The notes under the pieces were generated by a model, which worked only from the letters and a program-made list of their open reading frames with translations, had not been told where the DNA came from and searched no databases. Source: Bacteroidota bacterium (GTDB taxonomy: Bacteria; Bacteroidota; Bacteroidia; Chitinophagales; Chitinophagaceae). Taken from it: DNA of 64,000 bases. Both the position numbers and the translations under genes were made by a program. The first letter of the stretch is position 1. Every line of letters starts with the position of its first letter. Shown here one piece after another: positions 994 to 54,468 of this stretch. The stretch spans positions 1-64,000 of the forward strand of contig VGMN01000008.1 of the NCBI GenBank assembly GCA_016866355.1, given 5' to 3'.

Positions 994-2697
994 TTGGAAA
1001 AAAGGTGGATTATAAAATCGGTTGACAAAGAAAAAGTCAATGCACTACAACAGGCCTTGCAAGTGCATCAAGCCCTTCCTACCCTATTATTACAAAGAGG
1101 CATCGAGGATTTTGAACAAGCACGCGCCTATTTCCGACCCCGCTTAGAAGACTTGCACAGTCCTTGGCTTTTTAAGGACATGGACAAAGCTGTAACCAGG
1201 GTTGAAAAAGCAATTTCACAGCAAGAAAAAATATTGATTTACGGAGATTACGATGTGGATGGCACTACGTCAGTGGCAAGCTTTTACTTATTTCTTCGCT
1301 CCATTCATCCAGCTTTAGATTACTACATCCCACACCGATACAAAGAAGGATATGGAATCAGCAAAGCAGGAATTGATTATGCTGCTGCTAATGGGTTTTC
1401 ACTTATCATTTCCCTTGACTGTGGAATTAAATCTGTAGAATTGGTTCAGTATGCAAAAACCTTAGGGATTGATTTTATTATATGTGACCACCACCTGCCC
1501 GATTCTATTCTTCCAGCGGCGGTTGCCATCTTAAATGCAAAACAACCCGATTGCCCTTACCCTTATAAAGAATTGTGTGGATGCGGAGTAGGATTCAAAT
1601 TAATGTGTGCGCTAGAGGAAAAACTACAGCTACCCGATAATCCATCACTTAAACACCTGGATTTACTTGCTACTGCCATTGCGGCTGATATTGTTCCAAT
1701 GACTGGCGAAAACAGAATTTTAGCCTTTCATGGTTTACTGAAAGCCAATAAAAATCCTAATCCAGGGATTGCAGCACTTTGCGAACTAAGTAATTTGAAA
1801 CAAGAACTAGATATTCAAAAACTTGTTTTTATCATAGCCCCACGAGTCAATGCCGCTGGAAGAATGGATGAGGCTGGGAAGGCTGTTGAACTTTTTATAG
1901 CAAACGATAAAGCAGCCGCAATTCATTTTGCATCACAACTTCATAGTGATAACTCCGATAGACGCGAGGCTGATCGGCAGATTACCCGAGAGGCACTGGA
2001 AATGCTTGAATCGGATACTACCATTCATCAGAAAAATGCAACCGTGGTCTATCAACCACATTGGCACAAAGGAGTGGTTGGAATTGTAGCGTCTAGACTG
2101 ACGGAGCATTATTACCGACCAACAGTGGTCCTGACAAAATCCGGAGAAATAGTTGCGGGTAGTGCCAGAAGTGTCATTGGGTTTAATCTTTACGAAGCTA
2201 TACATGCCTGCAAAGAATATTTATTAGGATATGGTGGCCATTTTGCAGCAGCGGGAATGACCTTAGAAGAAAAAAATGTAGTTGCATTTGCCGCGGCCTT
2301 TGAAAAAGTAGTAACGGCCACTATCCAACCTGAGCAAAAAGTTTCGCTGATTGAAATTGATTTAGCAATTGACTTGCAGGCACTGAACTGGAATCTGTAC
2401 AAATTAATTGGACAAATGGAACCTTTTGGTCCTGATAATTTTCGTCCGGTTTTTTTAGTCAGCGGTGTTTGGAATACCGGCTACTCAAAAATTGTTAAGG
2501 ATGAACACATTCGTTTCTCCATTACAGATGGCCAACACACATTCAATGGAATTGGTTTTGGCCTAGCAAAAAAATTCACGTTGCTACAGCAACAACAACC
2601 GATTGATATTGTATTCACCTTGGATGAAAATGATTTCAATGGCCAACGCAGCTTACAAATGCGTGTGATGGATATTCGAAGGCATATACCCGCATGA
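994..2697 (+). CDS. recJ: Single-stranded-DNA-specific 5'-3' exonuclease RecJ
   Basis: Degrades single-stranded DNA 5' to 3' in RecF-type recombination and in base-excision and mismatch repair. The 567 residues are the usual length for RecJ. The DHH phosphoesterase core shows GDYDVDG at 84-90, DCG at 142-144, DHH at 165-167 and GCGVG at 196-200. The DHHA1 domain shows RVNAAGRM at about 284-291, HKGVVGIVASRL at 358-369 and GGHFAAAG at 414-421. A C-terminal OB-like segment follows. The start is TTG, 4 bases after the previous stop. The next in-frame ATG is at residue 63, too far in, so TTG is preferred. It is probably translated from the upstream gene's mRNA. Confidence 0.93.
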   Translation: MEKRWIIKSVDKEKVNALQQALQVHQALPTLLLQRGIEDFEQARAYFRPRLEDLHSPWLFKDMDKAVTRVEKAISQQEKILIYGDYDVDGTTSVASFYLFLRSIHPALDYYIPHRYKEGYGISKAGIDYAAANGFSLIISLDCGIKSVELVQYAKTLGIDFIICDHHLPDSILPAAVAILNAKQPDCPYPYKELCGCGVGFKLMCALEEKLQLPDNPSLKHLDLLATAIAADIVPMTGENRILAFHGLLKANKNPNPGIAALCELSNLKQELDIQKLVFIIAPRVNAAGRMDEAGKAVELFIANDKAAAIHFASQLHSDNSDRREADRQITREALEMLESDTTIHQKNATVVYQPHWHKGVVGIVASRLTEHYYRPTVVLTKSGEIVAGSARSVIGFNLYEAIHACKEYLLGYGGHFAAAGMTLEEKNVVAFAAAFEKVVTATIQPEQKVSLIEIDLAIDLQALNWNLYKLIGQMEPFGPDNFRPVFLVSGVWNTGYSKIVKDEHIRFSITDGQHTFNGIGFGLAKKFTLLQQQQPIDIVFTLDENDFNGQRSLQMRVMDIRRHIPA

Positions 2698-2749: not shown

Positions 2750-5700
2750 CTATTGAATGACCAATTGTTGCACACCAACCTGTATGCTTTCGTTAGCCAA
2801 TACAACTCTATAAATTCCAAACGACAACGTTTCAGGCAAGGCAATCAATTCATTAATATATGTTCCTTGAACATTAAGCTGCTTTTGCCAAACACATTGT
2901 CCTTGCTGGTTGTACAGCAATAACGTGTAATTACCTGTGGTAAGAGGAGTCTGCGTAACACGTATTATTGCACCGCGTGATGCCGGACTTGGGAATAGCT
3001 TAAATCCATCACCAATACGGAGTGTGGTAAAAGATTGTTGCGTTCCATAATTGATGGCCCCGGTGGTGGTAACATAAGCTTTGTAATAATAAGTAGTGCC
3101 TTGTTGCAATCCGGAAAGCGCAACCGAATAATTGGCATTGGCATTAGTAGTAGCGGCTACTCTAGTTCCAGTTCCGTTTGCAAAACCATTTATTGTGCTG
3201 TACTCGATCCCATAACCTGAAAGTGCAGCACAGCCTCCAGTCCCAAATGAACTTGCCAGTGTTGCCGAACTAGTGGTAATACCAGTAGCAGCACCAGTAA
3301 CAACACTAGGAGGAGTATTAACGCCATTACCCGAAGCAGCTACTCCGGTAGCCGTTGCACCACCGCCGGATATTGGAATGACTCCTGCATATGCTTGAAT
3401 AGCAGTTGGTAAAAACCGTACATAAACAATCAATGTTTGAGTACCTCCGGATTGCAATAATCCAATCACATCGCTGTAGGAGCCCGTGGATGTTTGACTA
3501 AAAGTAAACCCAGTTAAAGGTCCAACAGTTATTAATGCATTTGTGAGGTTAGTACCTGTAATAGTAAACGAGTAAGGCCCTCCAATTGCACCCACACAAA
3601 CATTGCCAAATGAAGTAAGCGAGGAGACACTTAATTGAGCGGGCGGTGGAGCCGAAGTAGTGAACGATTGTTGACCTCCATAGGAAGTGCCCCCACTGTT
3701 GGTTGCATAGGCTTTATAATAATAAGTAGTACCTGCACTCAATCCACTCAAAGTGGAACTGAAATTTCCACTAGCCAAATTGGAAGAGGCAACCCTTGTT
3801 CCAGTTCCATTTGTAAATCCATTGGTTGTGCTATACTCAATGCCGTATGCCGTTACAGCACCGCAACCCGTTGCTGTAATTGAACCAGCTAATGTGGCTG
3901 CTGTTCCACTGATTCCACTACTTGCCCCAGAAGTAACAGCAGGAGCTGTATTAATACCACTGCCACTAGCAGCTACGGTTGTTGCAGCTGCTACACCCCC
4001 ACCAGCAACAGCAATATTTCCATTATAAGATTGAACAGCCGTTGGTGAAAATCTAACAAATACTTGCTGCGAGTAGCTACCGCCAGTTTGGCTCAATGAA
4101 AGTGTACTTGTATACGTACCGTTGGAGGTAGTGGCATAACTGTACCCATCAAGTGCCGCCACGGTTACAGCAGCCGTTGATAAATTACTGCCGGTAATGG
4201 TAAAAGAGGAAGGACCCGCGGATGTATTAATACAAACTGAACCAAATCCACTTAAAGCACTAACAGACATCGTTGGATTTAATGAAACAGTTGTAAAACT
4301 TTGTTGTGCCCCATAAGCTGTACCAGCAGCAGTAACTGCATAACTCTTATAATAATAAGTTGTTCCAGCAGTCAACCCACTTAGGTTAACTGAAAAGTTT
4401 CCACTAGCTAGATTAGCTCCAGCAACTTGTGTACCGCTTGTAAAATTATTTGTTGTACTATACTCAACTCCGTAAGCTGAAACGGTACCACAACCATTGG
4501 CAGTGATGGCTCCCGCTAGTGTAGCCGCAGTTTGAGATATACCAGTGGCAACGCCCGTTGTAGTTGTAGCCAACGTATTCACTCCCGACCCAGCCGCAGC
4601 AACATTGACTGCAGCTCCTAAACCAACCCCAGTCAATGCAATGTTTCCACTATAGGATTGAACGGCAGTGGGATTGAATTTTACAAACACCTCCTGCGAA
4701 AGAGAACTGCCAGTTACAGGAATAGACAACGAACTGGTATAACTTCCATTTGCTGTGGTAGCATAACTAAAACCAGAAAGTGACGCTACTGCCAAATTTC
4801 CGCTGGTTAAATTTGTTCCTGTAATAGTAAAAGAATTGGGACCCGCTGTTGTATTTATACAGACATTTCCAAATGCAGTCAATGCAGTAGTAGTGAGAGT
4901 GGGCGTGTTTGAGCTAGTTGTTACAGCAATCTCATTGGAATTTACAGAGGTCACTCCACCAGCAATTGCCCTGACCACAAAGTAATAAGTGGTTCCTCCA
5001 GTCAATCCAGTAACTCCATAGGTAGTTACATTGCCGACGTTTTGATTTTGAAGTATGTAATTATTGGTTGTACCAGTTGTGCTTCCTTTGATAATTACAG
5101 CAGAGATTCTACTGGTGCCTCCGGAGGCAATTGCTGCTCCTCCAACGCTATTATTACTGGTTTGTAACCAACGGACAGAGACTAGTGGTTTATTCGCTGC
5201 ATCAGTTGGCAAGGCAACATCAGTCAGCGCTCCCCAAGTTGATGCATTACCCGCAGCAACTGCGGTAGTTAACGCTACGGTGCCGCCCGTTACATCAGTC
5301 CATGAACCACTGGTTCCCACACGGTATTGAAGTTTGAAATCTTTAGGGCCCGTACTGGACGAACCCTGTAAAGAGGAAACAGTAATTGAAGTTGCCCCAG
5401 TGGTATTTACGTCAGCTTGCCAATATTTAGTATCGGCACCATTATCCCACCCATTTGTAGAGACAGCATATGGATTTGCCCCTGTAGTTCCTGTGGGACC
5501 ACCAGGCCAAGAAACCGTATTGCCACTAAATCCCTGTGGCGTTATAGTTTGAATTGAAATATTATTTGCATTGCCCACATCAGCAGTTTGTGCTGTAGCA
5601 GCAGCGGTAGTAAAATTCCAACCCGCCAATGTGCTGGTTACTTGTCCTGTTGATTGCGAATAAACATCCAAATAATACCCCACTGCACCCGTCACAGCAT

Positions 5701-6760
5701 TCCAATTAGCCGTGAATCCATTTCCACTCACTGCTGTACCTGCAGTGGCAACAGGGGCTGTAATTGCAACACCTGTACCAGATACTGCAGCAGTAGCGGT
5801 AGCACCACCACCTGAAAAATTCAGATTACCAGACCTTGCCCCAACTGCTTGTGGTTTGAATCGAACATAAACAGGAGTAGCCGCCAATGTAGCTGCACTG
5901 TATGCAATGGTAGCACTAGCCCCCCAAGTAGTGTTATTGGAAGAAACTTCAAAATCGGTAGAGGATGATGTGACAGTAATAGAACCAGGTGCACCCGTTA
6001 AATTAGCACCTGAAAGATTTGCAGCTTGTGAGGCCGTAGTAGCACCTACTGTTGTACTAGAAAAAGCAGTGTACGAAGCAATTGTTAGGGAAGGAGAAGC
6101 ACTAATGCAGAGTGCAACAGGAGAAGTACTTTTACGTGGCACTGGTGCTGTTACCACATCAAAATCATTATTATTATTATCAGTGTCTGTGCAACCGTTT
6201 GTTTTACGAACAGCGCCTTGGGTATTTACCAATGCAGTTCCATTATTTACAGTAGCATTACCTTCCCCATTATTAGAAGCGCCATATGAAACCAAGTCGA
6301 TAATCCCTGTTGCAGGAAGTGTACAAGGTGAGGCAGTTGCACCACATCCAAGTCCAGTAGCGCCATTCACCAACGCAACTTTTCCTGAACTTGCACTTAA
6401 TGAAAGATTGGTTGTTGTCAAATCTGGCGTTACAGGAAAATCTGCTCCAGCCGTTCCCAAGGTTCCACATTGAATAAACAGATATCCTCCTGCTGGAATA
6501 CTGGTACCAGCGGGAATTGCATATATCTGTGTAGCTGAGCCACCAAAATTTCCAGAGTTAGAACCATATTGAATTGAAAATCCATCCAATGACTGAGAGG
6601 CTGTGCTAACATTATGCAGTTCTACATAATCTGCTTTGTAAGTAGGAGAACCAGTAGTTGCCCCACCCCCTCCATATACTTGGCTAATCACTACAGTAGT
6701 AGATTGACCAAAAGAAGTAGAAGAAATTAAAACAAGGAGTGCAATGAATATTTTTTTCAT
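2750..6760 (-). CDS. Giant lamin-tail-domain surface protein with fibronectin-like repeats and type A T9SS signal
   Basis: 1336 residues. A signal peptide (MKKIFIALLVLISSTSFGQ) leads into a lamin tail domain at about 20-220 (VVISQVYGGGG, then YKADYVELHN and LDGFSIQYGS). Next come beta-sandwich domains including a fibronectin III-like segment, then three near-copies of a ~207-residue unit (see repeat entry). The C-terminal ~80 residues (from FKLFPSPASRGA) form a type A Por secretion signal, so the protein should cross the outer membrane by T9SS and be surface-bound or released. It is the last gene of the receptor operon, 12 bases after the DUF5689 protein. LTDs often accompany secreted nucleases, and a role in holding nucleic acid or matrix at the surface is inferred. 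No catalytic motif is seen. Confidence 0.85.
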   Translation of the reverse strand: MKKIFIALLVLISSTSFGQSTTVVISQVYGGGGATTGSPTYKADYVELHNVSTASQSLDGFSIQYGSNSGNFGGSATQIYAIPAGTSIPAGGYLFIQCGTLGTAGADFPVTPDLTTTNLSLSASSGKVALVNGATGLGCGATASPCTLPATGIIDLVSYGASNNGEGNATVNNGTALVNTQGAVRKTNGCTDTDNNNNDFDVVTAPVPRKSTSPVALCISASPSLTIASYTAFSSTTVGATTASQAANLSGANLTGAPGSITVTSSSTDFEVSSNNTTWGASATIAYSAATLAATPVYVRFKPQAVGARSGNLNFSGGGATATAAVSGTGVAITAPVATAGTAVSGNGFTANWNAVTGAVGYYLDVYSQSTGQVTSTLAGWNFTTAAATAQTADVGNANNISIQTITPQGFSGNTVSWPGGPTGTTGANPYAVSTNGWDNGADTKYWQADVNTTGATSITVSSLQGSSSTGPKDFKLQYRVGTSGSWTDVTGGTVALTTAVAAGNASTWGALTDVALPTDAANKPLVSVRWLQTSNNSVGGAAIASGGTSRISAVIIKGSTTGTTNNYILQNQNVGNVTTYGVTGLTGGTTYYFVVRAIAGGVTSVNSNEIAVTTSSNTPTLTTTALTAFGNVCINTTAGPNSFTITGTNLTSGNLAVASLSGFSYATTANGSYTSSLSIPVTGSSLSQEVFVKFNPTAVQSYSGNIALTGVGLGAAVNVAAAGSGVNTLATTTTGVATGISQTAATLAGAITANGCGTVSAYGVEYSTTNNFTSGTQVAGANLASGNFSVNLSGLTAGTTYYYKSYAVTAAGTAYGAQQSFTTVSLNPTMSVSALSGFGSVCINTSAGPSSFTITGSNLSTAAVTVAALDGYSYATTSNGTYTSTLSLSQTGGSYSQQVFVRFSPTAVQSYNGNIAVAGGGVAAATTVAASGSGINTAPAVTSGASSGISGTAATLAGSITATGCGAVTAYGIEYSTTNGFTNGTGTRVASSNLASGNFSSTLSGLSAGTTYYYKAYATNSGGTSYGGQQSFTTSAPPPAQLSVSSLTSFGNVCVGAIGGPYSFTITGTNLTNALITVGPLTGFTFSQTSTGSYSDVIGLLQSGGTQTLIVYVRFLPTAIQAYAGVIPISGGGATATGVAASGNGVNTPPSVVTGAATGITTSSATLASSFGTGGCAALSGYGIEYSTINGFANGTGTRVAATTNANANYSVALSGLQQGTTYYYKAYVTTTGAINYGTQQSFTTLRIGDGFKLFPSPASRGAIIRVTQTPLTTGNYTLLLYNQQGQCVWQKQLNVQGTYINELIALPETLSFGIYRVVLANESIQVGVQQLVIQ
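3027..4907 (-). repeat. Three tandem ~630-bp coding repeats in the lamin-tail protein gene
   Basis: Each unit encodes about 207 residues: an FGxVC...SFTITGTNL sandwich, then a fibronectin-like half ending TTYYYKAY...QQSFTT. Unit boundaries are near 3030, 3655, 4288 and 4905. DNA similarity is high, for example TATAATAATAAGT occurs near 3714 and 4346 with a one-base variant near 3080. This suggests recent internal duplication and possible length variation between strains. Confidence 0.8.
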
Positions 6761-6772
6761 ACAATGGTTTTA

Positions 6773-8890
6773 TTAATTCCAAGACAATTGAACATCATCG
6801 ATCGCAGAAGAGGGACGGTTACCACTCCCCGTAGTTGCAGCGAGAGTAACTATTCGAATCCATACTTTCTGATTTATATTATTCAACGCCGAACCAAAAC
6901 TTACTGTAACTGGCGTACTACTAAAAGTTCCCAGATTTGTAGTGAGTGTAGCAGGGTTAGTTGTGGCGGACGTAAAAGTTGAGGGATTATCACCCAAGCC
7001 ATATTCTACACGCCAAGCAGTAGTTCGCCCTCCAGGCGTAGCATCTAATGATTGAAGTAAAAAACTAAGCTGAAAATTAGTTTTAGCTGTGGTATTATCT
7101 AATAGTAACAGGAAAGCAGCACCAGGATCATAACCCGCCGCGCTAGTCTGACGGATTCCCAATGCACGATTTGTATGCGCTCCTTGCACAGCTGCATCGT
7201 TCGTGGAAGTCATGCCCGTAAAGGAGGCAAAGTTTTTCAACCCTGCACTAGTTTGATTCCAAGCTGTGGGACTCCCTAAACCAGTGGCAGGATAAAAAGG
7301 CATATCACCGGTGCCGATAGAAGTGGAAGTAGCACCAATTTTTACAGAAATACCTTGGGGCAATCCCGTTGCTATTCCATCAAAGTTTTGAATGTAGGGC
7401 GAACTAGTCAATGGAATGCCACTAGAGCCAGGAGGCGGACCGGCACCAGCCACCACATCAGATAAATTACGAATGGCTATTTGTTTTACCGTATTAAAAG
7501 GTGTGAGGTAACCCACAAAAGAATCAGCAGTTCCCGGAAAAATATTATTAGCAAAGGAAGCAGCTGTAGAAGTAAATGCAATAAGTGTTCCCGTGGCATC
7601 CGTCATTGTTACACTACCTCCCCAGCGGCCTGAAGTACCACCAACCAATGAGGTAATGTTAATAATTTTTACTAAAGTAGATTCCCATGCACGAAAATTG
7701 GTTTGAATAGCTGCAAAAGTGGCGGTACGCGGCGCAATAGATTTTCCAGTAGCAACACGCGTAGCATAGCCAAGTGGAACACTGTTGAGTTGAAGCAGCC
7801 CATTAAATTCAGTTAACTCCTGCCCTGTTATGTTGATATCGATTGAATCCCCTAAATCAAAGGAATGCGCACTTGAAAAACGAACACAAATACCAGCCAA
7901 TCCACTTCCTTGTTGGATATAAATATTTTGAGCATTTAAATTATTGGTAGCACGATCGCTGATTACCACTCCTGTTATGCGTTTATTAGTAGGAGCATAC
8001 GTAGTTGCACCCGTGTAAAGTGAACGAAGTTCAGCAATGGACAGTAATGTCGTAGGGCCTGTGCCACAGCGGGTAGAATTAAATCGAACATCTGCTGTAT
8101 CGCGAATTGTTAATTGTCGAGTTGAACCAAAATAGGAGTACACGCCAACCACAGCGCCATTACCGGCAGGCACTTTCACCTCAGCAAAATTTGAATAATT
8201 ACTAGTGCGTAATGTTATCCGATTTGCAGCAGGCACAGAACATCCCTGTATAATTCTATTGCCGGACTGTCCGGCATCAGCATATGTTTTTCCAGTATCG
8301 GTAACAGCAAATTCCATATCTTTAAGCCGAATCAACGTGCTGATATAGGGATCTTGCAGGGTTGTTGTAAGCTGCGTAGCGGAAACCTCAATTGGAACGA
8401 TAGGCTGATTCAATGCTCCTTTAATAATATGTTTATCAAATAAATTATAAGCCAACAGGGTAACACCTCCTTGGTTTAAATAAGCTGAGTCAATACCGCC
8501 TCCCAATTGGAGTGTTCCGCTATACTGCCCTAGATACAACCCATTTACTTTTACATATAGTTTTCTCCCAACCGGATAGGTATTAAAAAGATTAGCACTT
8601 CCTAAACGTAAAAGAATTCCACCTGTTGCATCTTGTATAGCAATCTGCTGGTAATAATTCCCACTACGATCATCACACACCACCACTCCTTCTATTACAT
8701 GATTGTCCGTAATAGCAACTGCGGCGCCAGCAGTATACCTAGTCTTCAAATCCTTGATACTAATGGTAGCCACTAAACCAGGGTCTCCAGTAGTGGCAGG
8801 TTGATCAAAACTTTTTTTACAAGCAACCACACTAAAAATTAATAAGGCAGCTGTGGCTACAAATAAGTTTGAATATTTTACTCTTAACAT
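6773..8890 (-). CDS. Lipoprotein with two DUF5689 (OB-like) domains and a C-terminal jelly-roll-like domain
   Basis: 705 residues from the ATG chosen here. This start gives a clean lipoprotein signal (MLRVKYSNLFVATAALLIFS, lipid-attachment Cys about residue 24) and leaves 10 bases after the upstream stop. Two OB-like segments have the pattern 'GVVxxD...IxIQ...GI.....Y/L.xGD...I.G...xYNGxLQL': about residues 65-132 and 303-370. The C-terminal ~200 residues (from YIQNFDG) look like a beta-sandwich binding domain. The OB pattern resembles the domain between the LTD and EEP parts of COG2374-type extracellular nucleases. It probably sits in the outer membrane next to the TonB receptor. Whether it faces outward cannot be read from the residues after the Cys (KKSFDQ). 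Confidence 0.75.
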   Translation of the reverse strand: MLRVKYSNLFVATAALLIFSVVACKKSFDQPATTGDPGLVATISIKDLKTRYTAGAAVAITDNHVIEGVVVCDDRSGNYYQQIAIQDATGGILLRLGSANLFNTYPVGRKLYVKVNGLYLGQYSGTLQLGGGIDSAYLNQGGVTLLAYNLFDKHIIKGALNQPIVPIEVSATQLTTTLQDPYISTLIRLKDMEFAVTDTGKTYADAGQSGNRIIQGCSVPAANRITLRTSNYSNFAEVKVPAGNGAVVGVYSYFGSTRQLTIRDTADVRFNSTRCGTGPTTLLSIAELRSLYTGATTYAPTNKRITGVVISDRATNNLNAQNIYIQQGSGLAGICVRFSSAHSFDLGDSIDINITGQELTEFNGLLQLNSVPLGYATRVATGKSIAPRTATFAAIQTNFRAWESTLVKIINITSLVGGTSGRWGGSVTMTDATGTLIAFTSTAASFANNIFPGTADSFVGYLTPFNTVKQIAIRNLSDVVAGAGPPPGSSGIPLTSSPYIQNFDGIATGLPQGISVKIGATSTSIGTGDMPFYPATGLGSPTAWNQTSAGLKNFASFTGMTSTNDAAVQGAHTNRALGIRQTSAAGYDPGAAFLLLLDNTTAKTNFQLSFLLQSLDATPGGRTTAWRVEYGLGDNPSTFTSATTNPATLTTNLGTFSSTPVTVSFGSALNNINQKVWIRIVTLAATTGSGNRPSSAIDDVQLSWN

Positions 8891-8900
8891 GGGCAAGATT

Positions 8901-9638
8901 TTATTGTATATCTGCTGCACTTCGAATGCCAATTTGTGTAGCATCCTGCGTAGTTGTTTTATAAATAGAAACATAACCAGTAATTGAGCGAGCGGCCGTG
9001 TTAACTGTAATGGCTGCTGCGGCCCTTACAAAAACCGTTAAACTGCCTGTAGCATCGGTTACCGTGTAAGTTGTACCAGTACTATTGGTGGAAGCTTGTG
9101 TAATGCTAGTCAAGTTATTAATCCTAACTAGTGTCGAGGCCCAAGTATTACGGTTTGCAATTATTTCAGCACAGGTTGAAATACGCGGCGTTATTGTTAG
9201 CGAGAGTGGTACAGTTACAATCTTATCCATTGGAACATTCTTTAATTCCAAATCACCATTGTAGAGCAACAACTGTCCAACGCCAGCCGCATCAATTTCT
9301 AAGACGGACCCAATAGGGTATACGGGCGAACCTACAACCGTATACAGATATATTCCACCCCCATTTTCATCTTGCAACCTAAAATTTCCAGCAGCCTCAT
9401 TGGCACTATTGGAGATAACAATTCCCCGTATCTTTTTAGTGCCAACAGGTACAAGTACTGTTCCTGTGCCAGGATACAATGCACGGAAATCGGCTATTTT
9501 CATCAATTCACTGGCAGGACTTGGAACAATAGGATCAGGGCCTGTTGGTCCAATAGGTTGCTTGTCACAGGAGAGTAAAGTAGTGGCAAACCAAAAGAAA
9601 CAGACCGGCAGTAATGAAATTTTTAATCGTATTGACAT
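8901..9638 (-). CDS. DUF5689 (OB-like) lipoprotein
   Basis: 245 residues from the ATG, with a lipoprotein signal ending LLSC (Cys 24) and then a Gly/Pro-rich linker. A single OB-like domain at about 68-134 shows KKIRGIVISN, GNFRLQDENGGGIYLYT, YPIGSVLEIDAAG and LLLYNGDLEL. A second beta-rich part carries WASTLVRINNLTS and TYTVTDATGSLTVF, a pattern shared with the next lipoprotein (ESTLVKIINITS, TMTDATGTLIAF), so the two are paralogues. It sits between the TonB receptor and the larger DUF5689 protein, where other Bacteroidota loci would have a SusD lipoprotein. The function is unknown. A TTG 18 bases upstream is an alternative start but spoils the signal peptide. Confidence 0.75.
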   Translation of the reverse strand: MSIRLKISLLPVCFFWFATTLLSCDKQPIGPTGPDPIVPSPASELMKIADFRALYPGTGTVLVPVGTKKIRGIVISNSANEAAGNFRLQDENGGGIYLYTVVGSPVYPIGSVLEIDAAGVGQLLLYNGDLELKNVPMDKIVTVPLSLTITPRISTCAEIIANRNTWASTLVRINNLTSITQASTNSTGTTYTVTDATGSLTVFVRAAAAITVNTAARSITGYVSIYKTTTQDATQIGIRSAADIQ

Positions 9639-9659
9639 AATTAATCGTTGATTCAAATG

Positions 9660-12251
9660 TTAAAAACGAAGTGTTGCGCTAGCAAAGAAGTTTAAACCAT
9701 ACGCATAAAATAAGCGTGGCGGAAACTTACCAACCTGTACAGGGTCAGCGGCAATCAATTGTTGATCGTAGCGTAGTTGTTCAAACCCGCCAGTAACAAT
9801 TTTCTTATTGTTCAATAGGTTATTAATCCCCACATTTAAAACAAGGAAGGTAGACTTTCTATTTACTTCGTAAGCCTTTGGTAATTTCCAGGAGTACCCA
9901 CCAAAGAAATCGATGGTGTATTGGGCATCAAACTTTGTTTGCTCAAAAACAGATTTATAGTCAGCGGTGCCAGGTGTTAAATACTGAAGTGCATCCCACG
10001 TACGTCTGAGTGGATTCATACTTAAATAAGATTGATCAAAATAACTTCCCGTTATACTTACAAACCAAAATTTGGGAGATCTGTAATTCAAGGAAACGCT
10101 ATACGCCTCCATAGGAGTAGAGGGAACCTTGAAGTTTTCCATATAGATAATATCTCTACCAAGCACCGATGCATTATTATCAACAGTTACAATAGCTTGT
10201 TGGCGGCTATCAAAGTAATAGCGCCCAATAGCTGCTGCAGCATTAACTGTTAAGGTGGGAGAAAGTTTTACTTCTATGCCAAACTCGCCACCAACATGTA
10301 GTCGATCAATGCCGCGTATAGCATAATTGACAAAATTCTGATAGAAGTCATGATAGAAAATCATGATGTCCATGCCTTTCCTAAACTGCGTATAGTAGCC
10401 GCCGATTCTTGCCTTCACTTTGGGAGCATTGAGTACATAGGCAGCCTCTCCAGATAAAATCTCTTCGCTTTGCAAGTCTGCTTGTTGCGCGTTGCGCGTG
10501 CGAGGGGAGATGTATACATTCTCAAAATAGGGAGCACGAGTCAAATAGGCCCCATTCACAAAAACATAATTTCGTCCATTGATTTTATAGGTCAGCCCTG
10601 CTTTGCCCGCATAATCTAAAAAATTATTAGTAGTGCCTTTTCCAAGAGACTCATTGGGAAAAATTCCATTACGAACATTTCCTTGCCGATAAAAGGAGGT
10701 TGCATACAAATTACCTGCTACAAAAAAATCAAGCTTATTAAATTTAAATACCCCTTGCACCCATGAAGCCGCGCGCGAAATATTCAGGTTATAATCATAC
10801 CCAAAACGGTCCCCTACTTTTAAAATTCTATTGGGACGATCTACATCAAATTGATTCACACCGCTGCCCACACCAAAGTCACGTTCGGCAAACTGATTCA
10901 CATTTACATAAAAATCCCCGCCAAGTAAATCTTCAACCTCTTTGTAATAATGATTTTGTTGTGTCTGATAAGAGACGCCAAACGTCACATCTACATGATT
11001 ACCTATTCGAGAATTTAATACACTATTGAAATTGAAACGAGTGGTATTAATAATTCGATTTTCAATAATATACCTGGAGCGATTTCCACTAATGTCATTA
11101 CCTATAACACCATTGGCATCCTTAACAGTTGCGTAACTAGCTGCATTTACATCATAAAGCCGTTGCCAATTGATCTGCCGCAGGTTAATATCAGCACGCA
11201 TGAGTGATGCGAGCCTCTCTGCCTGCGCGCCATCCGGCGAATTAGCCCAAACACCTGTATAACTAGGCAAATAACGATAATAATCAGGTCTTGGATCTGC
11301 CGCATTGTACCAATCAAATCCAGTTACGGAACGATTACCGGTAGAAATACTCAAGGCGGTAGTCAAGCTGGTGTTATTCCTGATGGTAAATTCATGGTTG
11401 ATGATAGCAACAGGTTGATGCGTTCTTCCTACACTAACATTGCGCTTTTTGCCATTTTGATAACCCCAGTTAGGATTATAATAAGGAGTACCTGCCAAAT
11501 CAATCATTTCCTGCACGGAGGCACCTTGCCTTCCGTTTTCATTAGGTGCATCAAATACAGTCAGAGAAAGTAGGTGGCGTCGATTGATTTTTTTATCGAT
11601 GCCTGCAAAGAATGCCCACCCATCATAATAAGTACCCGGCACATACCCTTCACCAGCCCATCTGCGACTTCCACTCAGCGCAAAAGCCCACCCCCTTTTA
11701 CTAAGACCGGTAGCATGCGTGAGCATCATCCGATTATTGTAATTACGGTTGGAGGCTGCATAGCTAAATTGTGTTTGCGCACGCTGTTTACTGGCACGCG
11801 CATCAATATTTGTGTTACCACCAATATCGCCGAATGTAAAAGTGTTGGTACGCAATCCCCAGGAGATATCACGGTTGCGCATCACATCATTCAATCCGCC
11901 CCATAAACCAAAAGGAGTAAACCCATTATCCAAATTATCCATGGGGATTCCATTCAAAAAAGTACTGAAATGATCATTTTCGTACCCACGTATTCTAAAA
12001 CGAACCGCACTAAAATTGAAAGAAGCTGCTGAAAAAAATGGATCACGTCCAGCGGTTAGCAGCGAGGAAACATTTTGACCGCCTGCATCGCCCATATCTC
12101 CTTCATCAAGAGTAATGGTTGGAATATTATCCAGGAGTGCATCTTTTACTTCATCCAAAATTGCTGTGTCTTTACGAGCAGTGGAGTCAACTTGTGCAAT
12201 TGAAATAAGTTGAAAACCGAGTAGGAACAAGAATAAAGCCACAATACGCAT
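9660..12251 (-). CDS. TonB-dependent outer-membrane receptor
   Basis: 863 residues with a signal peptide (MRIVALFLFLLGFQLISIAQ). A plug domain follows at about 40-160 (VSSLLTAGRDPFFSAASF, then RFRIRGYENDH and FLNGIPMDNLDNGF). The rest is a long beta-barrel with aromatic-rich strands, ending in ASATLRF with the terminal Phe typical of outer-membrane barrels. The N-terminal carboxypeptidase-like domain found in SusC proteins is absent, and no SusD gene is present. It is the first gene of a four-gene operon with two DUF5689 lipoproteins and the LTD protein, and is divergent from a secreted EEP nuclease. The substrate is unknown. Context suggests a product of extracellular nuclease or phosphodiesterase action, which is inference. 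Confidence 0.85.
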   Translation of the reverse strand: MRIVALFLFLLGFQLISIAQVDSTARKDTAILDEVKDALLDNIPTITLDEGDMGDAGGQNVSSLLTAGRDPFFSAASFNFSAVRFRIRGYENDHFSTFLNGIPMDNLDNGFTPFGLWGGLNDVMRNRDISWGLRTNTFTFGDIGGNTNIDARASKQRAQTQFSYAASNRNYNNRMMLTHATGLSKRGWAFALSGSRRWAGEGYVPGTYYDGWAFFAGIDKKINRRHLLSLTVFDAPNENGRQGASVQEMIDLAGTPYYNPNWGYQNGKKRNVSVGRTHQPVAIINHEFTIRNNTSLTTALSISTGNRSVTGFDWYNAADPRPDYYRYLPSYTGVWANSPDGAQAERLASLMRADINLRQINWQRLYDVNAASYATVKDANGVIGNDISGNRSRYIIENRIINTTRFNFNSVLNSRIGNHVDVTFGVSYQTQQNHYYKEVEDLLGGDFYVNVNQFAERDFGVGSGVNQFDVDRPNRILKVGDRFGYDYNLNISRAASWVQGVFKFNKLDFFVAGNLYATSFYRQGNVRNGIFPNESLGKGTTNNFLDYAGKAGLTYKINGRNYVFVNGAYLTRAPYFENVYISPRTRNAQQADLQSEEILSGEAAYVLNAPKVKARIGGYYTQFRKGMDIMIFYHDFYQNFVNYAIRGIDRLHVGGEFGIEVKLSPTLTVNAAAAIGRYYFDSRQQAIVTVDNNASVLGRDIIYMENFKVPSTPMEAYSVSLNYRSPKFWFVSITGSYFDQSYLSMNPLRRTWDALQYLTPGTADYKSVFEQTKFDAQYTIDFFGGYSWKLPKAYEVNRKSTFLVLNVGINNLLNNKKIVTGGFEQLRYDQQLIAADPVQVGKFPPRLFYAYGLNFFASATLRF

Positions 12252-12386
12252 GCAGTGTAGTTTTTAGGTGTAGTGAAGTTATTGGCTAGCTCAAAACAGG
12301 TTATTAAAAGTTAAACACATTTTAGGGGATAAATTGAGATCAAAAAGTGCTAGTAAGTTGTAGTTTTAGGCCTCGTTGTGACTTTT

Positions 12387-13430
12387 ATGAAAAAACACCT
12401 GCTTATATTGCCACTTTTCCTTCTCAGCATTTCATCGTTCGCCCAAAAAAAACAATTTAAGTCAGCCATTATTGGCTTTTATAACCTGGAAAATTTGTTT
12501 GACACATTAGATAACACTTTAATTAATGATGAGGAGTTTTTACCCAGTGGAATCAGAAATTATAATACCGCTATCTATAAGGATAAACTCGCTAAACTAG
12601 CTGCTGTTATTGCACAAATTGGCACCTCCTATACGCCAGATGGCCCTGCTCTTTTAGGTGTTGCTGAAATTGAAAATGACACCGTCCTACACGACCTTGT
12701 AAATGAACCACAATTACAAAAAAGAAACTATCGATATGTCCACTATGATTCAAAGGATGCGCGTGGTGTGGATGTTGGATTACTTTACAACCCAAACTAT
12801 TTTTCTGTACTCACCAGTAACAAGTTATTTGTTCCACTACCCACCGGCTCAAAGGACGCTTACTATACGCGAGACATTTTATGGGTTAAAGGGAAATTAA
12901 ATGGTGAAACTATACACGTATACGTAAACCATTGGCCAAGCCGAAGTGGCGGCGAAAAAAGAAGTGAACCTGGAAGAATTGCCGCCGCTGCGGTATGCAG
13001 GAAACACATTGACAGCATCCTTTCAAAAGAGCCAAATGCTAAGATTGTTGTTATGGGAGACCTTAATGATGACCCGATCAATAAAAGTGTAGAAAAAGTG
13101 CTGAGAGCTGTCGACAAAGACCAGTTAGACCAACAAGGGGCATTATTCAATCCCTGGTTGGATCTTTATAAAAAGGGTATTGGCACATTGGCTTACCAGG
13201 ATGCTTGGGGGCTTTTTGATCAAATCATTGTTTCAAAATCTTGGTTAGATAAAGATCAGGGCGGTTTCTTCTTATACCAACCCCAGGTTTTTAATAAAGA
13301 ATTCCTTGTTGAAAACAACGGGCGCTACAAAGGTTACCCCATGCGAACTTGGGATGGTAATAGTTACCGAGGTGGTTACAGTGATCATTTCCCTACATAT
13401 ATACTGGTAATCAAAGAGTTAGGTAATTAA
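12387..13430 (+). CDS. Secreted endonuclease/exonuclease/phosphatase (EEP) family protein
   Basis: 347 residues with a signal peptide (MKKHLLILPLFLLSISSFAQ), so periplasmic or exported, with no T9SS signal. Motifs of the metal-dependent EEP fold are present in order: FYNLENLFD (Asn33), GVAEIEN (Glu94), GVDVGLLY, NHWPSR (His182), GDLNDDP (Asp225, Asn227) and YSDHFPTY (Asp333, His334). All catalytic positions are intact. FYNLENLFD is typical of the extracellular nuclease branch (COG2374-like). Likely substrates are DNA, RNA or another phosphodiester. The ATG is preferred over a GTG 9 bases upstream because it starts the signal peptide directly. It is divergent from the TonB receptor across 135 bases. 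Confidence 0.88.
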   Translation: MKKHLLILPLFLLSISSFAQKKQFKSAIIGFYNLENLFDTLDNTLINDEEFLPSGIRNYNTAIYKDKLAKLAAVIAQIGTSYTPDGPALLGVAEIENDTVLHDLVNEPQLQKRNYRYVHYDSKDARGVDVGLLYNPNYFSVLTSNKLFVPLPTGSKDAYYTRDILWVKGKLNGETIHVYVNHWPSRSGGEKRSEPGRIAAAAVCRKHIDSILSKEPNAKIVVMGDLNDDPINKSVEKVLRAVDKDQLDQQGALFNPWLDLYKKGIGTLAYQDAWGLFDQIIVSKSWLDKDQGGFFLYQPQVFNKEFLVENNGRYKGYPMRTWDGNSYRGGYSDHFPTYILVIKELGN

Positions 13431-47483: not shown

Positions 47484-50400
47484 CTATTTAATCAGCATTA
47501 CCGAACCTTTTTTAGTAATGATTCGATCGTCCTTTGTAATGCCCTCAATCATCCAGATATAAATTCCCTCTGGTTGCAATTGACCCCCAATAGTGCCATC
47601 CCAACCCTCCATCATTTTACGAGTCTGAAACACTACCTGACCCCATCGGTTGAAGATGCGGAAGTAATTATAGCTTTTCATTCCTACCGGGAAGGGAGTG
47701 AACTTATCGTTTTTACCATCCCCATTGGGTGTAAAACCTGTGGGCACATAAATATCCGGGCCTTTGTAAACACGAATAGTAACATAGGCTTCTCCTTTGC
47801 AGCCTGCATTGGTGAAGGCTACTACTTTATATCGAACATCTGAACCAATAGCTCCGATGGTTACGGTTGGATCCTTAACCAGGGCATTACTAAGCCCCAC
47901 CGCAGGAGTCCAGGTATAAGAAGTTACTGCCGGATCATTGGGAACAGCAAGCAATACAAATTGATCACCAGGGTATCCGATGGTGTCGGCCGGAAATGTT
48001 TTAACCTGTATGGGAGGCGTAACAGCAATCCGAACCGTGTCGGTTATTAAAGCTGCACAACCGTTGGCATCTGATAAAACAGATAGCACATAGAAAATAT
48101 CACGATCAGGTGTTGAAATAGCATTGGGTAATGAAGGATTATTCAAATAAGTGGAAGGCGTCCACTGATAAACGGTTCCTCCTGAACCTTGTAAGGTAAC
48201 AGTTTGTCCATAGCAGATCACACGGTCAGGGCCTGCATCAGGTATAGGAGCAGGATTGACCCGTACTACTACCGTATCTTGATCAACACATCGGCCTAAT
48301 GTGATAGTTACTACATACTGTGTTGTGCTGACTGGCGAAGCAACCGGGTTGAATATATTAACCGCACTGAGACCAGTAGCAGGAGTCCAATCATATTGCA
48401 AACCATTAGAAACGGCTGTTAATTGCGTGGATCTGCTTTCACAAATGACAGCATCATTTTGAGGCGTGAAAGTGAGATTGTTTGTCAAACCAACCGTAAC
48501 AGTTTGTGTGGTCAAGCAATTCAACGCATCTTTCACTTTTACGGAATAAGTACCTGGTGCAAGGTTATATGTATTTGTGGTTTGCCAGCTAACGCCGCCA
48601 TCGATGGAATAGTTAAAGCTGCCATTGCCACCCGTTGCTGTAATAGTTAATCCACCATCATTTCCTCCATTACAGGAAGCATTGGTAGTGGTGGTGATTG
48701 CAGTAAGTGCTGCAGGTTCCGTTATAACAATGGGAGCCGTTCTTGTGCAGTTGTTAGCATCTTTAATAGTAAGTGTATAATTACCGGCAGGCAAATTAAA
48801 GGCCGTAGCCGGTTGCCAGTTTACTGCATCCACACTAAATTGATAAGGAGCCACACCGCCACTGGCCGTGATAGTTAGTTGTCCGTTGGATTGTCCATTA
48901 CAGATTACTGGCACCGTATTGGTTATAGCGCTAATTACTGAAGGTTCTGTTACCACCACCGAAGTAGTACCTGTGCAACCATTACTTTCTCTGAAACGTA
49001 TAGTATGAGTTCCGGCGGGGACTCCTGTAAATTGATTACTACTTTGCCATGTTACTCCATCCAATGAATACTGATAAGGAGCGGCACCCACTGTTGGTGT
49101 GACAACAGAAAGTGTACCTGTGCTGGCGCCGTTACAGAGTGCAGCGGTAGAAGTTGCCGTTGTGGTGAGTGCAGGACCAGGTGATACCGCAACAATGGAG
49201 GCAGTACTCACACAACCCAATGCATCCCGTATTAAAATTGAGTGATTTCCTGCGGAGAGTCCATTGAAAGTATAAGGAGCGGCACCAGTAAAAAATGCAC
49301 CCCCGTCAATTGAAAATTCATAGGGAGCTGTGCCATTGGTGGGCGTAACAGTTAATGTACCATTGATGGCACCTTCGCAACTAGTAGCTGCCGAAGCAAA
49401 ACTGGAAGCCAATGGAGGACCAGCTGCCACAACCAAGGTCCTGGTTAATTGACAACCCAAATTATCTCTTATTACAATAGTGTGACTTCCTGGTGCAACA
49501 TTGCTAAAGGTGAACGGGTTAGAACCTGTTTGAATAGTTCCACCATCTAATTGAAAAGTAAAAGGAGCTGTTCCAGTTGTGGCATTAACAGTAATACTTC
49601 CATTAGTAGCTGTAGGACAAGAGCTGGCTGCAGTAGTTGTAGTTGCTGCAACACCTGACCCTACTGCTACATTCACAGTTTGTGGTCCGGAAGAACAGCC
49701 TGTAGCCAAATCAGTAACAATTACGGTGTGATTACCCGATACTACATTATTAAAAGTGAATGGCAGTGTTCCTTGAACAGCGGGGTTAGCATCCAATTTA
49801 AAAGTATGAGGACCGGCGCCCGCAGCAGCTGAAATGGTAATAGAACCATTATTGACTCCCGTACAAGCAGTAGGCGCTGCACCAATCGTTGCAGCTAATT
49901 GTCCTGCTGAAGCAATGGTAACGGGTATGCTGATAGTACAAACACCCGGAGCATCTCTTACAGTGACTGTGTAAGCCCCTGCTGCCAAGCTATTAAATAC
50001 GTTACTACTTTGCCAATTGGTTCCGTTAATCGAATATTGATATGGAGCGGTACCACCTGATGGAGCACCAATAGTTATCACACCATTGGCATTTCCACAA
50101 GAAGCGGCACTGGGAGTAGCGGTAGCCGCAAGTCCGGCTGCGCGGTTCACTCGCACTGTATCGGTTCCAAAAATTTCTACTGTGGGATCATCAAACTTTT
50201 CATACACTGATCTGATCACATAATTAGTAACGGCACCAGCAGGAGGACAGATATTGGGAAAAGACACTTCCAAATTTCCATTACCCAGGTTTACTGTAGC
50301 AGCTGGCAATACAGTTGCCACAATTGCTCCGGTATTATTTACCAGTTCAACTCGTTTCAATAAGGAGGGTCCATCATTTGGCACAAAGCGCCAGCTTTCA

Positions 50401-51188
50401 TTCATGTTAAGCCCGCCCCATGATGGTCCTAATGCTGTGCGGCCGGGAGCCATCATGCCTGACGTACGATCCCAGTTCTGAATACCAACAATGGCACGAC
50501 CACTATTCCAAGTGGCACAGGTTTGTTTACTGAAAAGCAACACCTCTATCACGTTCAATGATTCGTACAAAACTATCTGGTGTGTGTTTTGTGTTAAACT
50601 AGTGCAAGAAAATAGCCGAACCTCATTATAACTGAGAATCCATCTGCGATGCGGCGCGGTACCAAACGCTTGATACTGGATACGTTGATTAGGTTGACTG
50701 GTGGTAGGATACAAATCATGATTAGGCCCCATGATTGTTGCTCTGTCATAACTACCACTGGGTAAATCTGCAGGAATACTCCAAGCAGCATATTGACTTG
50801 CGCGTGAAGCATCAAAAGTTAAATATCCATTGGTACTTGCGGCAAGTGTAGTATAGGTAGCCCCATAAAATGAAAAGGGAAATCCCATGGTGATTAGGGG
50901 AGTATAGGTATCGTCAACAGTTAAATTCGTAGGTGTTCCCTGTGGATCATTCGGAGCAACATACACAGGAAAACAACCTGGTGTTGTGCTGGTTGGATTA
51001 ATAGTATAAGAATTGGATTGCTTTTTGATATCAGGCAATCGGCCTTTTAACGTAAAACAAAAGTTAGCAGGGCAGCTTGGCACCAGGGTATCCCGCGTGC
51101 AATTAAGTGTAAAGCTTTGTGCTGCAGAAAAAAAGCAAGAACCAGTCAATACAAGTAAAACAAAAAGACGCTGGGCTTGATGAATCAT
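47484..51188 (-). CDS. SprB-repeat surface protein with gliding-motility-type (type B) C-terminal domain
   Basis: 1234 residues from the ATG that begins a signal peptide (MIHQAQRLFVLLVLTGSCFFSAAQ). Layout: a ~320-residue N-terminal head (GFPFSFYGATYTTLAASTNGY, NTHQIVLYESLNVIEV), seven SprB-type repeats, two or three PKD-like or Ig-like domains (ICESRSTQL, ICYGQTVTLQGSGG) and a CHU_C type B T9SS signal (YVPTGFTPNGDGKNDKF, FNRWGQVVFQT, EGWDGT, PEGIYIW). It is exported by T9SS and should be a filamentous adhesin or motility protein. The head is homologous to that of the gene at 54469. It follows rsh by 57 bases. A TTG three codons upstream is a less likely start. Confidence 0.88.
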   Translation of the reverse strand: MIHQAQRLFVLLVLTGSCFFSAAQSFTLNCTRDTLVPSCPANFCFTLKGRLPDIKKQSNSYTINPTSTTPGCFPVYVAPNDPQGTPTNLTVDDTYTPLITMGFPFSFYGATYTTLAASTNGYLTFDASRASQYAAWSIPADLPSGSYDRATIMGPNHDLYPTTSQPNQRIQYQAFGTAPHRRWILSYNEVRLFSCTSLTQNTHQIVLYESLNVIEVLLFSKQTCATWNSGRAIVGIQNWDRTSGMMAPGRTALGPSWGGLNMNESWRFVPNDGPSLLKRVELVNNTGAIVATVLPAATVNLGNGNLEVSFPNICPPAGAVTNYVIRSVYEKFDDPTVEIFGTDTVRVNRAAGLAATATPSAASCGNANGVITIGAPSGGTAPYQYSINGTNWQSSNVFNSLAAGAYTVTVRDAPGVCTISIPVTIASAGQLAATIGAAPTACTGVNNGSITISAAAGAGPHTFKLDANPAVQGTLPFTFNNVVSGNHTVIVTDLATGCSSGPQTVNVAVGSGVAATTTTAASSCPTATNGSITVNATTGTAPFTFQLDGGTIQTGSNPFTFSNVAPGSHTIVIRDNLGCQLTRTLVVAAGPPLASSFASAATSCEGAINGTLTVTPTNGTAPYEFSIDGGAFFTGAAPYTFNGLSAGNHSILIRDALGCVSTASIVAVSPGPALTTTATSTAALCNGASTGTLSVVTPTVGAAPYQYSLDGVTWQSSNQFTGVPAGTHTIRFRESNGCTGTTSVVVTEPSVISAITNTVPVICNGQSNGQLTITASGGVAPYQFSVDAVNWQPATAFNLPAGNYTLTIKDANNCTRTAPIVITEPAALTAITTTTNASCNGGNDGGLTITATGGNGSFNYSIDGGVSWQTTNTYNLAPGTYSVKVKDALNCLTTQTVTVGLTNNLTFTPQNDAVICESRSTQLTAVSNGLQYDWTPATGLSAVNIFNPVASPVSTTQYVVTITLGRCVDQDTVVVRVNPAPIPDAGPDRVICYGQTVTLQGSGGTVYQWTPSTYLNNPSLPNAISTPDRDIFYVLSVLSDANGCAALITDTVRIAVTPPIQVKTFPADTIGYPGDQFVLLAVPNDPAVTSYTWTPAVGLSNALVKDPTVTIGAIGSDVRYKVVAFTNAGCKGEAYVTIRVYKGPDIYVPTGFTPNGDGKNDKFTPFPVGMKSYNYFRIFNRWGQVVFQTRKMMEGWDGTIGGQLQPEGIYIWMIEGITKDDRIITKKGSVMLIK
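48492..50131 (-). repeat. Seven SprB-type coding repeats
   Basis: Units of about 72-78 residues with the pattern 'C.G...G.ltvt...G.aPY.yS.dg..w.......f..l.aG.yt..v.d..gC'. Boundaries are approximate. The repeats are divergent at the protein level, unlike the near-identical ones in the lamin-tail gene. Confidence 0.75.
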
Positions 51189-51245
51189 CAGTAACAATTT
51201 GCGCAGTAGTATTTTAGCTGAACAAGGTAAGAAAAATGAAGGAAA

Positions 51246-53498: not shown

Positions 53499-53555
53499 GG
53501 GTTACGAATTTACAAATTAATACCCAGTGAAACTAGCCTGTTGTTTACTGGCTGC

Positions 53556-54449
53556 TTACTTTAGAAATTGATAGCGAAGCAATACTTCATGTGCGTTAGG
53601 ACCTTTGTCAAACACACTTAAAGGAGATGAATAAATATCAAATGAATACCCTAGCATTAGTTTTTTCTGTACGTTGACACCAGCGGAGAGCATCCAACTT
53701 TGTCTGGCACGTAAAGACAGTCCCCACCAAAAAAGTTCACGATGCTCAATTCTGGCACCAGCTTGCAACTCAGTTGGTGCATTAGGTAAATAGATGACCA
53801 AAAAGTTAGGCGTTACGGTTGTATTAGCATCTACTTTCCATTGGTAAGAACCATGTAAATAGAAATGACGATACAAGCGAGCTTCCTCAATACGAGAGAG
53901 ACTACCTGAATAAAAGTTTAGCGCAGACTGAATAAGTTGGCTAACCGACATACCCAGTTGCCATTTTTTGGCAGTGTACGCTAGTCCTACACCCGCGTCT
54001 CCTTTGAAACGATTGGCAGCTCCACCCATCACCGGGTCACTTCCCAACGCATCAATCAACATGGCTTTATCAATGGCAAATTGCTGAAAGCGAGCTTCCA
54101 ACCCTACAGAAAAAGTTCCTCCACTATTGGTGGGGATATGATAGGCATAGGAAGTTTGAATTCCTCTGCGACTGGTTGGCCCCGTAACATCGCTATACAA
54201 ATAGGCGCCCACTCCAAGATTCGCTTTTTCTAAAAAAGTAGATCCATACACTAACGCAGTAACCGGGCTTCCGGCAATCCCACTCCACATACTACGATAG
54301 GAAGCACCCATGGTTGTTTTCTTTGAAACACCCGCCACAGCGGGATTATGCAAGTTGCCTTGCAAATCATAAAGGGAGGAGGTCATTAACTGCTGACCCA
54401 AGATGGGACCACTCATGGTCAAGAAAAGTATAGTAAGAATTTTTTTCAT
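53556..54449 (-). CDS. Type IX secretion membrane protein, PorP/SprF family
   Basis: 297 residues with a signal peptide (MKKILTILFLTMSGPILGQQ). The family start LMTSSLYDLQGNLHNPAVAGV and SYRSMWSGIAGSPVTALVYGS are diagnostic. The rest is an outer-membrane beta-barrel ending EVLLRYQFLK. SprF-type proteins are dedicated partners of type B cargo and let it attach to or pass through the T9SS. The gene sits 19 bases after the adhesin gene at 54469, so that protein is its likely client. Confidence 0.92.
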   Translation of the reverse strand: MKKILTILFLTMSGPILGQQLMTSSLYDLQGNLHNPAVAGVSKKTTMGASYRSMWSGIAGSPVTALVYGSTFLEKANLGVGAYLYSDVTGPTSRRGIQTSYAYHIPTNSGGTFSVGLEARFQQFAIDKAMLIDALGSDPVMGGAANRFKGDAGVGLAYTAKKWQLGMSVSQLIQSALNFYSGSLSRIEEARLYRHFYLHGSYQWKVDANTTVTPNFLVIYLPNAPTELQAGARIEHRELFWWGLSLRARQSWMLSAGVNVQKKLMLGYSFDIYSSPLSVFDKGPNAHEVLLRYQFLK

Positions 54450-54468
54450 ATCAGTCAGTTGTAATTAA

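Follow-up and report, generated by a model that had tools for sequence, protein, structure and literature searches.

Organization of the locus

The window, i.e., the whole stretch of 64,000 nucleotides that was analysed, carries a cluster of five genes encoding a lamin tail domain (LTD) protein, two DUF5689 lipoproteins, a TonB-dependent-receptor-like barrel protein and an EEP nuclease (Table 1). A first-pass annotation had placed LTD, OB and EEP parts together with a receptor in a single locus, and all five open reading frames were recovered at the expected positions in the ORF list of the window, with their domains. Internal ATG codons at 8890, 9638 and 12387, read from the ORF translations, are the likely starts; with these starts, the two lipoprotein genes no longer overlap.

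Table 1. Features of the cluster and of its borders in the window.
Feature	Coordinates	Strand	Remarks
recJ	994-2697	+	beyond the LTD/fn3 protein; read from translation
LTD/fn3 protein, weak T9SS tail	2750..6760	-	accessory, outside the conserved core
DUF5689 lipoprotein a	6773..8890	-	two domains and a C-terminal domain; lipobox VVAC; ORF opens at 8974
DUF5689 lipoprotein b	8901..9638	-	one domain; lipobox LLSC; ORF opens at 9656
TonB-dependent-receptor-like barrel protein	9660..12251	-	orthologue of a Riemerella transformation protein
EEP/receptor divergent intergenic region	12252..12386	.	partly conserved within the genus
EEP nuclease (PF19580)	12387..13430	+	ORF opens at 12378, likely ATG at 12387; signal-peptide-like start

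Pfam searches assigned DUF5689 to the two lipoprotein ORFs, 6773-8974 with 306.2 bits in two stretches (8087-8770 and 7454-8050) and 8901-9656 with 47.3 bits (match at 8907-9509; cut-off 28.6 in both cases). These three domains are the only DUF5689 domains found in the genome; a B. subtilis control search also turned up a DUF5689 match. Alignment of the intergenic region as a putative promoter pointed to no regulator. The most frequent words of 8 to 12 nucleotides in the window yielded no uptake-sequence candidate: most of them are rich in A and T, and their counts are close to what a Markov model predicts.

Two further features of the surroundings were recorded. The single-strand exonuclease gene recJ follows the cluster in the window and also in many of the same-genus loci (L085-L097), a proximity that possibly reflects a functional link or mere synteny. 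At 47484-56685 of the window, a PorP/SprF protein is flanked on either side by a protein that has SprB repeats and a CHU_C sorting domain; these are genes of type IX secretion and gliding-type adhesins.

The receptor is orthologous to a Riemerella transformation protein

Riemerella anatipestifer is a bacterium of ducks, and one of its proteins and the window receptor are reciprocal best matches: the search of R. anatipestifer returned the orthologue with 389.3 bits (next-best, 92.6), and the reverse search of the genome that holds the window returned 391.5 bits (next-best, 21.3). With six paralogues as outgroup, both receptors fall in one clade with a support of 0.925. The R. anatipestifer locus (L205) has the order comEC, two genes, EEP, receptor, DUF5689, which is that of RA0C_RS04895-RS04920; the L205 receptor is equated with RS04915 by order, annotation and identity rather than by accession. 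In the Riemerella study, RS04895 is ComEC, RS04910 lies upstream of RS04915, RS04915 bears a carboxypeptidase-regulatory domain and RS04920 is a DUF5689 protein (PMC8459023). The identity of the Bergeyella receptor is 61% in our comparison and 60.46% in that text (PMC8459023). As reported there, markerless deletion of RS04915 or RS04920 left no transformants (below 4.2e-10 vs 5.4e-5). The authors also state that Flavobacterium johnsoniae has homologues and yet was not transformed under the conditions tried, that receptor homologues were seen in Flavobacteriaceae only, and that the step readying DNA for ComEC was assigned to a protein left unidentified by the authors (PMC8459023). Deletion of tonBA or tonBB reduces R. 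anatipestifer transformation, and the authors put the tonBB effect down to iron (PMC8383284). Beyond one Riemerella transposon screen, no other genetics of this locus was found in open-licence PMC, where a single paper mentions DUF5689 by name.

The window locus thus resembles the RA0C_RS04915/RS04920 locus in its orthologous receptor, in the DUF5689 gene directly downstream and in the divergent EEP gene upstream. It differs in having two DUF5689 lipoproteins with three domains in all, an LTD protein behind them, a receptor devoid of the carboxypeptidase-regulatory domain, and comEC elsewhere in the genome (193.6 bits, G000:C3). The genome also encodes, twice, a DUF1343 protein, another Riemerella transformation gene family. 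No DprA match was found in this assembly, which is 96% complete; of the 39 genomes of the genus searched, counting this one, 36 have DprA, and it was likewise not found in two of the other 38, so that an assembly gap is possible. Two observations made on these genomes are noted separately: G024:C3:48805-49411 is the sole same-genus DprA gene that lies in two pieces, with an internal stop, and in R. anatipestifer the uptake unit is followed (L205:15664-21106) by a 1400-aa protein, Cas9-like by eye, and small cas-like genes.

At the domain level, the receptor scored 21.6 bits for Plug, under the Pfam cut-off of 23.9, and in the family, with E up to 0.01 as the limit, 9 of the 15 proteins examined match Plug. 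Its structural model consists mostly of long strands and is poor (pLDDT 58.5, with the N-terminal 148 residues under 50). A profile search for solved relatives returned a single weak match, human NOMO2, in the N-terminal part only (17.5 bits). The receptor had been described as lacking a carboxypeptidase-like domain, which is accurate for the window protein and does not extend to the family, since CarbopepD_reg_2 was found in 9 of the 15 members. In SusC/SusD importers, a lipoprotein acts as a lid on the barrel. The present unit likewise pairs a barrel with a surface lipoprotein, encoded behind it, that could be a lid; it differs in that the lipoprotein has a predicted tandem OB build and that the SusC model TIGR04056 was matched by only one of the 15 receptors. 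That SusD is missing, as first annotated, was borne out by the absence of any SusD family match among the five window proteins, and the DUF5689 lipoprotein may stand in for it as a lid.

The unit is conserved across the class

Conservation was surveyed in a class sample of 247 genomes, among which 91 have DUF5689 and 141 have PF19580. At E up to 1e-60 the receptor family was found in 55 genomes; the 52 scoring above 440 bits were kept and three at 221–231 bits were dropped. All 50 genomes with a DUF5689 match of at least 100 bits have the receptor, and only 2 of the 52 receptor genomes are without such a match, one of them having a weaker match (79.9 bits); by Fisher's test, p is about 2e-50, uncorrected for genome relatedness. 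The DUF5689 gene lies directly downstream of the receptor gene in 49 of the 52; in the remaining three it is on another contig (two) or was not found (one genome, 69% complete). PF19580 is encoded within 5 kb of the receptor in at least 40 of the 52, and upstream and divergently in at least 31 of these. Among the other 12 are G158 and G277, which we take to be Flavobacterium-like genomes and whose loci L076 and L077 showed no EEP in the vicinity of the unit.

The arrangement recurs in the named loci, i.e., the best 80 of 220, mostly from Chryseobacterium and its kin: a DUF5689 gene is present in 80/80 (73, plus 7 with overlapping starts) and a divergent EEP gene in 78/80, the exceptions being a contig that is too short and Bergeyella, which has no EEP there. 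The receptor match is missing from 7 of 34 same-genus genomes. An order-wide receptor search (171/246 at E up to 0.001) mixes paralogues in and served for the choice of loci only. The conserved core unit consists of the TonB-receptor-like barrel and the DUF5689 lipoprotein encoded immediately after it, in most cases together with an EEP nuclease; the neighbourhood survey proposed with the first annotation came out in favour of a conserved association.

DUF5689 has a predicted tandem OB fold

A confident model (pLDDT 89.5, 28 sequences) of the N-terminal of the two DUF5689 domains of lipoprotein a contains two OB barrels. The domain is thus, as modelled, a tandem OB fold, and by extension from this one domain the three DUF5689 domains of the window would make six OB barrels. 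The first-pass annotation had counted three OB-like DUF5689 domains: the number of domains and the OB character hold, a non-OB fold did not arise, and the equation of one domain with one OB has to be given up. Foldseek comparison of the model with the PDB, at E up to 0.001, gave 14 matches: eight entries are HIN-200 proteins by their titles, another four (4qgu, 4jbj, 4jbk and 3rn2) are presumably HIN domains as well, and the last two are OB proteins of telomeres. As the TM-scores of these 14 best matches are low (0.25–0.36, at 6–13% identity), the HIN-200 match is a likeness of build: DUF5689 shares a tandem OB build with the HIN-200 DNA sensors (IFI16, p204 and their kin), and kinship is not claimed. 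In a profile search of solved structures, only three proteins matched DUF5689 with an E-value of 1 or less; the top match is to a repeat of an antifreeze adhesin and covers 19 residues.

The lipoproteins have pI values of 9.3 and 8.8 in the window, vs 5.6 for the Riemerella DUF5689 lipoprotein. At L141, the lipoprotein behind the receptor is not recognised as DUF5689 and its OB matches are sub-threshold. A motif that starts at the lipid cysteine, C-x(1,6)-[FYW]-D-x-P, was considered as a signature and rejected: it is common, being present in 50 of the 124 lipobox proteins among the 147 DUF5689 proteins examined, many of which are closely related.

The Riemerella DUF5689 protein belongs to the NCBI M949_1556 family (590.8 bits, cut-off 475); M949_1556 is cited as affecting antigenicity and pathogenicity (PMC12566107) and LPS (PMC6557517) and is also treated in PMC11481396. 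The lipoprotein could accordingly shape the cell surface, the loss of transformation in Riemerella being indirect. We regard this as very unlikely: both the OB fold and the association with a receptor and an EEP nuclease point to nucleic acid, and the deletion was markerless for the receptor gene as well as for the lipoprotein gene (PMC8459023).

The EEP nuclease is probably periplasmic

The EEP protein matches Exo_endo_phos_3 (PF19580) with 395.1 bits (Pfam cut-off 27), and its catalytic columns are invariant in 62/62 family members. No solved relative was found by sequence at E up to 0.001. Downstream of the last [YF]SDH, 61 of the 62 proteins stop within 11–22 residues, the remaining one lacking that string, and a lipobox-like cysteine occurs in 3/62. 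The window enzyme has a signal-peptide-like start and no C-terminal sorting tail, and because of this lack of an export tail it is probably periplasmic, judging from its sequence. It had been annotated as a secreted enzyme with all catalytic residues; the residues are indeed complete, and "secreted" most likely means periplasmic.

Further secreted nucleases, namely PLD-type proteins with a DUF5689 of their own, endonuclease I or tailed EEPs, were found near the unit in 9/20 class loci and in 1/20 of another locus set, in which two loci hold no receptor; with three queries, none was found in the genus and order loci (0/20). Such neighbours favour nucleic acid as the substrate, whatever its use. 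The PLD-type nucleases with a T9SS tail are at L064:10621-12834, L069:10648-12876, L073:10656-12875 (recognised by phmmer only) and L082:13624-15810; the three that were scanned (L064, L069 and L082) have their own DUF5689 match, which is weak in L082.

These nucleases bear on a nutritional use, in which DNA or RNA is captured, cut by nucleases and imported by the receptor as oligonucleotides for phosphorus, carbon and nitrogen, transformation being a by-product where the remaining machinery is kept. The tailed enzymes beside the class loci agree with it, as do the failure to find DprA in the genome's own assembly and the reasoning of the first annotation, according to which the receptor imports the fragments. 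We nevertheless consider it unlikely, and import of fragments less likely than import of long DNA: the Riemerella orthologues are required for transformation (PMC8459023), the three queries found no extra secreted nuclease in the genus and order loci, and the window EEP looks periplasmic.

The LTD protein is an accessory

The LTD protein scores 37.6 bits for LTD at 2750-6760 (Pfam cut-off 34.3). It had been called a T9SS protein; the LTD assignment stands, while the Por_Secre_tail match is weak (14.1 bits, below the cut-off of 27). Relatives of this protein were found by phmmer behind the locus in 12/19 same-genus loci, some of the others being cut by contig ends, and no LTD domain was found in the three same-genus relatives scanned. 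The LTD protein is an accessory, not a core part of the unit. At L143:5376-7883, an LTD protein (92.2 bits), which also falls slightly short of the cut-off for DUF5017, is encoded behind a receptor where DUF5689 was not found.

COG2374-type nucleases such as ExeM carry lamin tail, OB-fold and EEP domains in one chain. The first-pass annotation had read the locus as such an extracellular nuclease split into parts, in which the LTD and OB proteins hold DNA for an extracellular EEP. The window does resemble ExeM/NucH in its EEP catalytic domain with OB and LTD parts nearby; the three genes adjoin one another, and the L143 locus again has an LTD protein behind the receptor. The differences weigh more: the parts are in separate chains and the EEP is from another family (PF19580), scoring 28.0 bits against the ExeM/NucH cut-off of 300 and devoid of an export tail, and the LTD domain was not found in the three same-genus relatives scanned. 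The split-nuclease interpretation is thus scarcely tenable. What was upheld from the same annotation is the capture and import of nucleic acid by OB-type lipoproteins partnered with a receptor.

A model for DNA uptake

Taking transformation and feeding uses together, import of nucleic acid by this unit is highly probable. Our main reading is more specific: the locus would be an outer-membrane DNA uptake device feeding ComEC, as in Riemerella natural transformation, with a probability of roughly 0.65. Its basis in the genome is orthology, gene order, the catalytic residues and the OB fold in the model. In this device, the DUF5689 tandem-OB surface lipoproteins would bind DNA outside the cell and keep it at the entrance to the TonB-dependent barrel, and the TonB system would open the barrel so that DNA reaches the periplasm without a pilus. 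There, the divergently encoded EEP, if periplasmic, may trim or degrade the incoming DNA, and ComEC, encoded elsewhere, would move one strand into the cytoplasm. Four elements of this model are inferred: that the lipoproteins bind DNA, that DNA passes the barrel, where the EEP resides and what it does, and that the organism is transformable.

Like the type IV pilus uptake of other Gram-negatives, the device would bring DNA to the periplasm for ComEC (in part after PMC8383284); it differs in that the unit has no pilus gene, the energy presumably coming from TonB. Counting against the uptake reading are the failure to find DprA, the same-genus genomes without the receptor, the comEC gene that is not adjacent, the sub-cut-off plug, the poor receptor model, the low TM-scores, a basic charge that is not common to the Riemerella lipoprotein, the link of that lipoprotein's family to antigenicity, the untransformed F. 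johnsoniae and the iron explanation of the tonBB effect. Also, where relatives encode secreted nucleases next to the unit, these enzymes would degrade the DNA ahead of uptake. A broader proposal, that of a class-wide pilus-free machine in which the barrel passes the DNA polymer, HIN-like tandem-OB lipoproteins serve as gate and the divergent EEP, as the periplasmic nuclease, prepares DNA for ComEC, is put forward tentatively and may well not hold in full.

How DNA crosses the outer membrane in Bacteroidota is poorly known. The present analysis follows the unit, whose gene order is fixed, through numerous families of the class and adds an OB fold, as modelled, for a previously unknown domain and a candidate nuclease. 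The mechanism is now directly testable, and the distribution of the unit hints at the Bacteroidota in which transformation may be a route of gene acquisition.
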